NCBI GenBank assembly: GCA_913065025.1 | Contig: CAJYAP010000013.1 | Coordinates: 1-32,251, forward strand | Length of the DNA: 32,251 bases | DNA from: an uncultured Gammaproteobacteria bacterium | Lineage (GTDB): Bacteria; Pseudomonadota; Gammaproteobacteria; Poriferisulfidales; GCA-002705445 | Direction of reading: 5' to 3' | Shown here: positions 1,767-4,086 of the stretch, piece after piece | Layout: each line of letters opens with the position of its first letter | Numbering within the stretch: the first letter of the stretch is position 1 | Translations under genes and position numbers: made by a program | The notes under the pieces: generated by a model | The model's database searches: none | The model's input: only the letters and a program-made list of their open reading frames with translations | What the model was told of the DNA's origin: nothing

Positions 1767-1855
1767 CTCACTCGTACGTTTAAAGTGCACTAGTTTGTAT
1801 GGTACTAACCATATAATTATACATATAAAAATTAATTTTTCTTAGGAGAAAGGGT

Positions 1856-3211
1856 ATGAAATCAAAATTATTACTACCTGTATTTGCAATGGTAGCTATT
1901 ATGATTCAACCTGCTTATTCTGTTACAGAAGCCGAATTTTATGAAATGCAAGAACAATTGCAAAATGCTTTAATGAAAATTCAAGCACTTGAGCAAGTTC
2001 AAAAGTCAAAAAGTTCTGGTAAAAAAAGCGGTGTTGTTAAAACAAAATCAAAGTCAGGTTTAACAATCAATACATCTGGCGGTGGTATCAAAGTTAAGTC
2101 TGGAAAACAAAAATTCGCCATTGGTGGACGTTTAATGATGGACTACGATTCTATGGATTCTGGACACCAAACTGAAAATAAATCATTTTCAGATATGGAA
2201 TGGAGAAGAACAAGAATCAACATCAAAGGTTCTGTAAATAAGCATTGGTCATATAAAGCAACATATGATTTTAACTCTGAAAAGGACTCAGCTAATCTGG
2301 ATGAAGGTTATATAAAATATGATTCCAAAAAAGGATTTTATATTACAGCTGGTAAAACTAAAGCTGACATGATGCTGGAACAAAGAACTTCATCAAAATG
2401 GATCTCAACAATTGAAAGAGGTCTTTTAAATGCGATGAATGAAAAAGTTAACTACTTAGTTGGTAAACCAGGAGACGGTGCTGGTGTAAAATTAGGTTTT
2501 TACGATAAAGCAAGTCGTTTCTCTGGAGCGGTATCTGTTTTTGATGCATATAAAAACGATTCAGACGATGATAATGATATGATTTGGCATACAACAGCAA
2601 GGCTTAACTACTCACCAAAAATGGGTAAAAACCAATTTGGTCACCTCGGTATATCTTACGGTATGGCTGATTACAAAGGTGAGACATCAAGTGCATCTCT
2701 ACAACTTGGCATTCACCAAGGTGATAAAACAACTTTGGCAGATGCAGCCGCTGGTGATATTACCAACTTAGGTGTTGAATTAGCATACGTTGCAGGACCA
2801 ATGTCTTTCCAAGCTGAATACTTTGACAATGAAACAGAACTAGAAGATGGTACTAAAGGTTTTGAGTGGGACGGCTTTTATGTTCAAGGTTCATATGTGT
2901 TAACCGGTGAAACAAGAGGCTATAAATGGAAAGGTGCTAAGTTTGATAAAATCAAACCGGCAGGGAAAAATGGTGCTGTTGAACTAGTTTTACGTTACGA
3001 AGACATTTCAATTGATGATGCTGATGAAGGAACAACTGCAGCAAACGAAGTTGATGTTGATAGAACTGTTATCGGTTTAAACTGGTATGTAACTAAAACA
3101 GTCAAATTCATGGCGAACTACTCAACAGTTAGTTTAGATAATGAAGTGAACCCAGGTGGGACAACTGAAGATCTAGATAGTTTCCAACTTAGAGCTCAAT
3201 ACGCGTTTTAA
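1856..3211 (+). CDS. Phosphate-selective porin, OprP/OprO-like
   Basis: Outer-membrane channel predicted to pass phosphate into the periplasm. The 451 residues have a signal peptide (about 1-22, ending QPAYS), a short helical, coiled-coil-like stretch (about 24-50) and a lysine- and glycine-rich linker (about 50-88). A beta-barrel of alternating hydrophobic and aromatic strands follows and ends in QYAF, the terminal Phe expected of outer-membrane barrels. The segment FSDMEWRRTRINIKGSV near residue 110 and the following strands resemble the OprO/OprP family (about 400-440 residues). AGGAG lies 7 bases before the ATG. Its divergent pairing with pstS supports phosphate as substrate; polyphosphate or another anion is possible. 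A terminator follows directly. Confidence 0.85.
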   Translation: MKSKLLLPVFAMVAIMIQPAYSVTEAEFYEMQEQLQNALMKIQALEQVQKSKSSGKKSGVVKTKSKSGLTINTSGGGIKVKSGKQKFAIGGRLMMDYDSMDSGHQTENKSFSDMEWRRTRINIKGSVNKHWSYKATYDFNSEKDSANLDEGYIKYDSKKGFYITAGKTKADMMLEQRTSSKWISTIERGLLNAMNEKVNYLVGKPGDGAGVKLGFYDKASRFSGAVSVFDAYKNDSDDDNDMIWHTTARLNYSPKMGKNQFGHLGISYGMADYKGETSSASLQLGIHQGDKTTLADAAAGDITNLGVELAYVAGPMSFQAEYFDNETELEDGTKGFEWDGFYVQGSYVLTGETRGYKWKGAKFDKIKPAGKNGAVELVLRYEDISIDDADEGTTAANEVDVDRTVIGLNWYVTKTVKFMANYSTVSLDNEVNPGGTTEDLDSFQLRAQYAF

Positions 3212-3270: not shown

Positions 3271-3301
3271 ATTAAGCAAATAATTAAGATAACAGATATA
3301 A

Positions 3302-3334
3302 TAAAAAAAATACCACCGTGGCTAGCAGTGGTAT
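3302..3334 (-). terminator. Minus-strand intrinsic terminator with no upstream gene
   Basis: ATACCAC (3310-3316) and GTGGTAT (3328-3334) form a perfect 7-bp stem. Read leftward it is followed by eight T residues (complement of 3302-3309). Read rightward there is no T tract. It faces the porin terminator, and no protein gene on the minus strand lies immediately upstream of it. Confidence 0.65.
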
Positions 3335-3437
3335 TTATATAAGTAGTACAAATGATTATAAGACTTATTATTTTATTAAAGATTATTAGGAGGATTTATG
3401 AATCTTTAATGCGTGTAATTTAAACGATATTTATTAC
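3302..3437 (-). ncRNA. Candidate leftward small RNA with CCTCCT loop
   Basis: No gene occupies 3271-3462, but the minus strand has the parts of a small RNA. There is a TATAAT-like box (minus sense, 3449-3444). Then comes a perfect 10-bp stem, with arms at 3401-3410 and 3375-3384, whose 16-base loop contains CCTCCT, the complement of a full Shine-Dalgarno sequence. Last is a terminator hairpin with a T tract at 3302-3334. Length would be about 135 nt. No good -35 is visible, so the start is a guess. An alternative reading is a plus-strand hairpin in the gmk leader with AGGAGG in its loop, but that would not explain the minus-oriented terminator. Confidence 0.4.
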
Positions 3438-3462
3438 ATAAAAATTATAAAAATATTAAGAA

Positions 3463-4086
3463 ATGATGAACTTTAATGACGAAATCTTCAAAAATCTTTG
3501 CGTAGTTTCAGCTCCTTCTGGAGCAGGTAAAACTAGCTTAATCAAAAAAATATCTTCACATAAAAATATATCAGTCAGTATTTCTGAGACCACAAGAAAT
3601 CCAAGAACAGGGGAAGTGGATGGAGTTGATTACATATTTGTAAAAAAAAGTGATTTTGAATTAAAAATTAAGAATGAGCAATACATAGAATATGCCCAAG
3701 TACATAGTAATTATTATGGAACAGTTTTAGATTCTGTCGTGCAGTTATTACAAAAAAATATAATAGTTATACTTGAAATAGATTATCAAGGAGCTGAAAC
3801 TGTTAAGAAGCAATTGCCTCAATCAAGAAATATATTTGTGCTGCCACCATCATTGAAAGTGCTTGAAAAAAGATTAAGAGAAAGAGCTACAGATAAGGAG
3901 GAAGTTATCCAAGAAAGAATGAAAAATGCAAGAATCGAACTTAGTAAAGCGAAAAACTATGACTATATATTAGAAAACGATGATTTCGAGCTCGCTGAAA
4001 AAAAATTATTAGCTTATGTGCTCGACGTTAACATGGATGTAGATGAGAAAGTAAGGAAAGAACCTTTGATAGATAAGAATTTTTAA
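3463..4086 (+). CDS. gmk: Guanylate kinase
   Basis: Phosphorylates GMP to GDP with ATP in the cytoplasm. The 207 residues equal the usual length. The P-loop SGAGKTS is at about 19-25, SETTRNPRTGEVDGVDY at about 41-57 is the GMP-binding region, and VILEIDYQGA (about 104-113) is the strand that precedes the lid. The start is an ATG-ATG pair (3463, 3466) with only a weak AAGAA upstream; either Met could be used. It begins the classic gmk-rpoZ-spoT cluster, with rpoZ 44 bases downstream. Confidence 0.97.
   Translation: MMNFNDEIFKNLCVVSAPSGAGKTSLIKKISSHKNISVSISETTRNPRTGEVDGVDYIFVKKSDFELKIKNEQYIEYAQVHSNYYGTVLDSVVQLLQKNIIVILEIDYQGAETVKKQLPQSRNIFVLPPSLKVLEKRLRERATDKEEVIQERMKNARIELSKAKNYDYILENDDFELAEKKLLAYVLDVNMDVDEKVRKEPLIDKNF

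Follow-up and report, generated by a model that had tools for sequence, protein, structure and literature searches.

A conserved element between oprP and gmk in an uncultured gammaproteobacterial family: a candidate anti-Shine-Dalgarno small RNA

We found that an uncultured, AT-rich gammaproteobacterium carries, in the spacer separating an oprP-like porin gene from gmk, a real and conserved element which goes beyond chance. Our best call, made from sequence comparison, is that it represents a plausible new, lineage-restricted candidate for an anti-Shine-Dalgarno (anti-SD) small RNA (sRNA). The window was the whole 32,251-nt stretch of contig CAJYAP010000013.1 that was analysed, and the genome carrying it (G000) was compared with its relatives G001–G011, giving 12 family genomes in all. 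Both genes are on the plus strand (porin gene, 1856–3211; gmk, 3463–4086) and are separated by 251 bp, which from left to right contain the porin terminator, TATAAT, an A8 tract, a hairpin, A/T-rich sequence and a 10-bp stem-loop, the last of these about 50 nt from the gmk ATG. The features were as follows.

1842–1848, plus strand: Shine-Dalgarno sequence TTAGGAG of oprP, an inferred candidate target site whose complement, CUCCUAA, lies in the loop
3235–3266, plus strand: terminator of the porin gene (oprP-like), which faces the minus-strand one tail to tail
3297–3302, plus strand: TATAAT immediately ahead of the A8 tract, probably the –10 box of gmk
3303–3310: A8 tract on the plus strand, T8/U8 on the minus strand; 3 of the 8 residues pair at the stem base
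3303–3336, minus strand: intrinsic-terminator-like hairpin (3308–3336) with U8, kept in G009, G005 and G002; G011 has it with another stem sequence
3375–3384 and 3401–3410, minus strand: 10-bp stem-loop; the minus loop (CATAAATCCTCCTAAT region) contains the anti-SD word CCUCCU
3388–3393: AGGAGG on the plus strand, CCTCCT on the minus strand; orphan SD or anti-SD word
3444–3449, minus strand: possible –10 box TATAAT of a minus RNA, with an implied start near 3437

A first-pass annotation had described a two-hairpin layout on the minus strand, a CCUCCU stem-loop followed by a terminator hairpin with eight T residues, and direct reading confirmed this description. The arms ATTAAAGATT (3375–3384) and AATCTTTAAT (3401–3410) are perfect reverse complements with a gap of 16 nt, and CCTCCT falls in the minus-strand loop because AGGAGG is present at 3388–3393. 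The terminator-like hairpin (11 pairs, including one G.U), together with the T8 following it on the minus strand, looks on a par with gene-end terminators in this lineage. It was also correctly described as an orphan, as no minus-strand ORF of at least 60 aa was called in it or right beside it. The fold of the minus strand at 3295–3440 had an energy of –28.8 kcal/mol (z = –5.0), which was matched by none of 200 shuffles. A 10-bp inverted repeat as such arose in 5.8% of the spacer's dinucleotide shuffles, and 0 of 3000 had one whose loop contained AGGAGG or CCTCCT. Besides, intergenic AGGAGG lacking a start codon was rare in our sample, and no ORF of at least 35 codons was found downstream of the one at 3388–3393.

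The distribution of the element was then examined by locus. gmk was found in 11 of the 12 family genomes (no match in G008). Beyond the window, the full element was observed in two close relatives, G009 (spacer 90% identical) and G005 (78%); it was recognisable in one genome of a second genus (G011), reduced to the hairpin in G002, and absent in six (G001, G003, G004, G006, G007 and G010). The stem ATTAAAGAT/ATCTTTAAT is identical in G009 and G005 and the rest of the loop has diverged, such that the conserved part of the minus loop is AUCCUCCUA, with surroundings differing between G000/G009 and G005. The anti-SD word ATCCTCCTA remained constant in G000, G009 and G005 while its loop neighbours changed, which supports the sRNA proposal, and was predicted to be unpaired or nearly so. 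Loss of the CCTCCT loop and the terminator in close relatives, which the first-pass annotation had named as evidence against its proposal, was seen in part: G002 lost the CCTCCT hairpin but kept the promoter-adjacent terminator hairpin, and six relatives have no element, whereas the genomes bearing it retain CCTCCT while the surrounding loop drifts. G002 (L053) was peculiar in another respect, in that its spacer and gmk start are near-identical to those of G000/G009, yet the whole Gmk protein is 67% identical; a recombination junction inside gmk is probable.

In G011, an A8 tract is followed by a terminator-type hairpin of different sequence, and right after this hairpin comes ATGGAGGAGTC, letter for letter the same as in G005. 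G011 also carries AATAGGAGTCACTATT as well as ATATTTATTACA, the latter in common with the window, and shares with G005 the sequence GACTCCTCCAT just before the terminator. The G005–G011 local alignment score was equalled in 2 of 1000 shuffles; the G000–G011 and G009–G011 alignments were not significant on their own. Additional anti-SD words precede the terminator in both genomes: a second one, CUCCUCC, in G005, and two in G011 (GUGACUCCU twice, one of them extended to CUCCUCC). The U-tract was kept in all five genomes with the terminator hairpin (U8, or U7 in G002). This hairpin shows a compensated A-U to G-C change in G005 and maintained pairing with a different stem sequence in G011, and the comparison indicates that its pairing is under selection. 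No covariation was seen for the CCTCCT stem in the genomes with the element. A DNA-binding palindrome was considered for the terminator hairpin and is unlikely, because the stem sequence of G011 is almost wholly changed with pairing kept.

A covariance model found a single good copy per genome, at the oprP–gmk locus. The best extra match (G005:C21, E 0.08) was a spacer with an ordinary gene-end terminator, and a dispersed repeat was rejected on the basis of this model, which gave no second good copy, and of an own-genome search which returned only short A/T-rich matches. No homologs were detected in 274 genomes of the class or in viral contigs, and in order-level relatives outside the family the sequence before gmk is GC-rich and unrelated; as far as searched, the element thus appears to be confined to this family. 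The resolution of the gmk tree was too poor for counting gains and losses. In G007 (L091/L054), oprP is a short remnant between pstS and gmk.

Several observations bear on the strand. A strict terminator scan of about 420 kb of G000, G011 and G005 gave 10 gene-end and 6 orphan sites, as judged by simple ORF calls rather than a trained gene finder. Three of the six orphans were the spacer element in three species; the others were the back face of the oprP terminator in G011, an NtrC-like palindrome and a weak site. The NtrC-type site, which mimics an orphan terminator, consists of the palindrome TGCACTTTTATAGTGCA after A7 at L073:908–932 (G000 contig 4), in a glnA/ntrB-like gap. A stem position of the spacer hairpin is G.U on the minus strand and a C.A mismatch on the plus strand in G000/G002 and, separately, in G011, whose hairpin forms a continuous 10-bp helix on the minus strand only (–14.1 vs –10.0 kcal/mol on the plus strand). 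There is a counter-case, one G005 pair being G.U on plus and C.A on minus. Hfq is present in 10 of the 12 genomes, and the missing matches in the incomplete G000 and G009 assemblies are uninformative. Overall, the evidence leans toward the minus strand, which is favoured by the U-tract, the rarity of orphan terminators, steadier minus pairing, repeated anti-SD words and Hfq. With regard to a promoter, no convincing one was found on the minus strand; T[A/T]TAAT occurs at the position of 3444–3449 in G000, G009 and G005 (TTTAAT in the latter two); a –10 box there was not reported by a consensus scan, and no –35 box was found nearby. Upstream of the stem-loop, TGTAAYAAA (minus, about 3430–3438) is kept in G000, G009, G005 and G011. 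Similar words lie upstream of oprP/pstS, but the second half of a PhoB box is absent and this assignment was rejected. Pho-box-like words (TGTMATAAAAMTTTAAYAAAA) are conserved at 1690–1780 of the window, between the divergent pstS and oprP.

Taken as one reading, with its start, terminator, Hfq and SD blocking, a minus-strand anti-SD sRNA gene is our tentative preference, and we place its chance somewhat short of even. An accessible anti-SD word kept in relatives and a predicted intrinsic terminator on the same strand are what such a gene would be expected to have. We infer that the minus strand is transcribed from a start between 3437 and 3411 to the U-tract at 3303, which would yield an RNA of about 110–135 nt. 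This RNA would display AUCCUCCUAAU in a hairpin loop and terminate intrinsically at a U-tract to which Hfq could bind, and by pairing with Shine-Dalgarno sequences of mRNAs it would keep the ribosome off. Strong SDs are not common in this genome (AGGAG precedes 4% of 221 first-ATG starts, uncurated), and this may limit the set of mRNA targets.

Such targets plausibly include the neighbouring phosphate-type porin gene oprP, a sequence-based lead that we consider the most testable one. In each of the three genomes where the loop is intact (G000, G009 and G005), the oprP SD, UUAGGAG, and the loop segment CUCCUAA are complementary. By energy of the duplex with the loop, oprP ranked 6 of 220, 10 of 147 and 13 of 201 start regions in these genomes (top 3–7%), the three ranks coming from related genes and not being independent. 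Its ranks by pairing to the 16S anti-SD were worse (39, 36 and 29); the standard anti-SD sequence was used here. A search for 16S genes found none in the genomes tried. In G011, the oprP rank was poor (41 of 122).

Relationships with described anti-SD RNAs were also considered. Rfam searches at gathering and at relaxed thresholds (to E = 5) gave no relevant match to the window. The first-pass annotation had likened the design to the cuckoo RNAs of Alphaproteobacteria, a kinship that found no support: besides the lack of an Rfam match, the window has one CCUCCU and not CCUCCUCCC in every hairpin. In the rhizobial cuckoo RNA ar14/NfeR1, which silences ntrBC at its start region (PMC10746234), anti-SD words lie in unpaired regions as in our element. 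However, ar14 has three hairpins each with an identical CCUCCUCCC, whereas the window has a single AUCCUCCUAAU loop and belongs to a different bacterial class; CCUCCUCCC is not among the anti-SD words of the window, G005 or G011 (CUCCU, CUCCUCC). Streptococcal csRNAs (RF02379) are stem-loops that finish with a terminator and have unpaired anti-SD and anti-AUG (CAU) words (PMC3091779). In the window, the loop likewise has CAU, 4 nt before CCUCCU, but CAU is lost in G009 and G005, csRNAs occur in several copies per genome while our element is single, and the csRNA1 match to the window in Rfam was at chance level (19.3 bits vs a cut-off of 57, E 3.1). The Neisseria RNAs NmsRA and NmsRB act on SDs through UC-rich anti-SD words that lie within a loop and also between stem-loops (PMC5362039); they are tandem siblings with three stem-loops, in contrast to the single copy here, and no sequence relation was seen. 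CyaR of enterobacteria, a gammaproteobacterial sRNA, pairs with the SD of the porin-type mRNA ompX (PMC11795201); the window has no Rfam match to it, and the location differs. By analogy with NfeR1, NmsRA/B, csRNAs and CyaR, SD blocking by pairing would be the obvious mechanism if the element is transcribed from the minus strand. If it is an sRNA, the element would work like these RNAs, with no described family shown to include it. So far, anti-SD sRNAs have been described in alphaproteobacteria, neisseriae and streptococci; if our reading is right, an independent family would also exist in uncultured gammaproteobacteria whose genomes measure about 1 Mb, and one could ask cleanly whether an anti-SD RNA becomes a selective regulator when SD usage is low. 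A separate Rfam match in G000, above cut-off (78.9 bits) at L073:8617–8839 (minus), was to Rp_sR47 (Rickettsia sRNA47); this is unexpected in a gammaproteobacterium and may be a conserved coding stretch.

The probable gmk promoter GATATAAT adjoins the element and is directed through it along the plus strand, and therefore a structured plus-strand gmk leader is a serious rival to the sRNA gene, even if we regard it as rather unlikely. The element would then be the 5′ leader of a gmk-rpoZ-spoT mRNA starting just after TATAAT (3297–3302), in which hairpin 1 would cap the 5′ end and the looped, SD-like AGGAGG would bind 30S subunits, a role ascribed to the STAB-SD of Bacillus cry mRNAs, or else a GGA-binding protein such as CsrA, and would thereby make the mRNA more stable or regulate it. 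Consistent with a leader, GATATAAT is conserved both where the element is present and in genomes lacking it (for example, G003 and G007, in which it is 6–9 nt ahead of the gmk ATG), gmk has no SD of its own, AGGAGG is also looped in the plus-strand fold, csrA is present in 8 of the 12 genomes and G002 has only the promoter and hairpin 1. The A-tract itself may belong to the gmk promoter, because in G007 A7 follows TATAAT in the absence of any hairpin. On the other hand, the minus U-tract, which is conserved, is nothing that a leader requires, two stem positions that pair as G.U on minus are C.A mismatches on plus, and most GGA words here are outside the ANGGA context that characterizes CsrA sites. 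Moreover, gmk appears to be leaderless in the six relatives that lack the element, because a promoter-like box directly precedes its ATG in each of them. TATAAT was located 6–9 nt before this ATG in L051, L052, L054, L055 and L056.

Other alternatives fared less well. It is improbable that the element has no trans function, the terminator hairpin insulating oprP from incoming antisense transcription and the hairpin with AGGAGG being neutral or decaying spacer. Its absence in six genomes, its partial loss in G002 and the frequency of the bare inverted repeat in shuffles (about 6%) fit this possibility, but the anti-SD word and stem are kept in G005 against a drifting background and CUCCUCC is found in G011. 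To a similar degree improbable is the most elaborate form of our preferred reading, namely an Hfq-dependent, lineage-specific anti-SD sRNA which is selective through weak SD usage and represses the tail-to-tail porin, with the other strand serving as gmk leader. Signals exist in each direction, and both strands might be transcribed with the minus RNA acting as a cis-antisense of the gmk leader and each affecting the other; half of the family lives without the element, however, and on these sequences we give this little chance. A leader peptide or mini-gene can be practically dismissed, since the perfect SD and spacing of AGGAGG-ATTT-ATG in the plus-strand loop of the window serve a 3-codon ORF (MNL*) whose ATG is gone in G009 and G005. 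A 22-codon plus-strand ORF (beginning MIIRLIILL, ATG at about 3350) was also rejected, its start being unmatched in G009. Elsewhere in G005, at L107:5877 (minus), another AGGAGG precedes an ORF of about 36 codons that starts with TTG, and a hairpin (GAAAGCCATCCTTGGCTTTC); this possibly represents a small gene.
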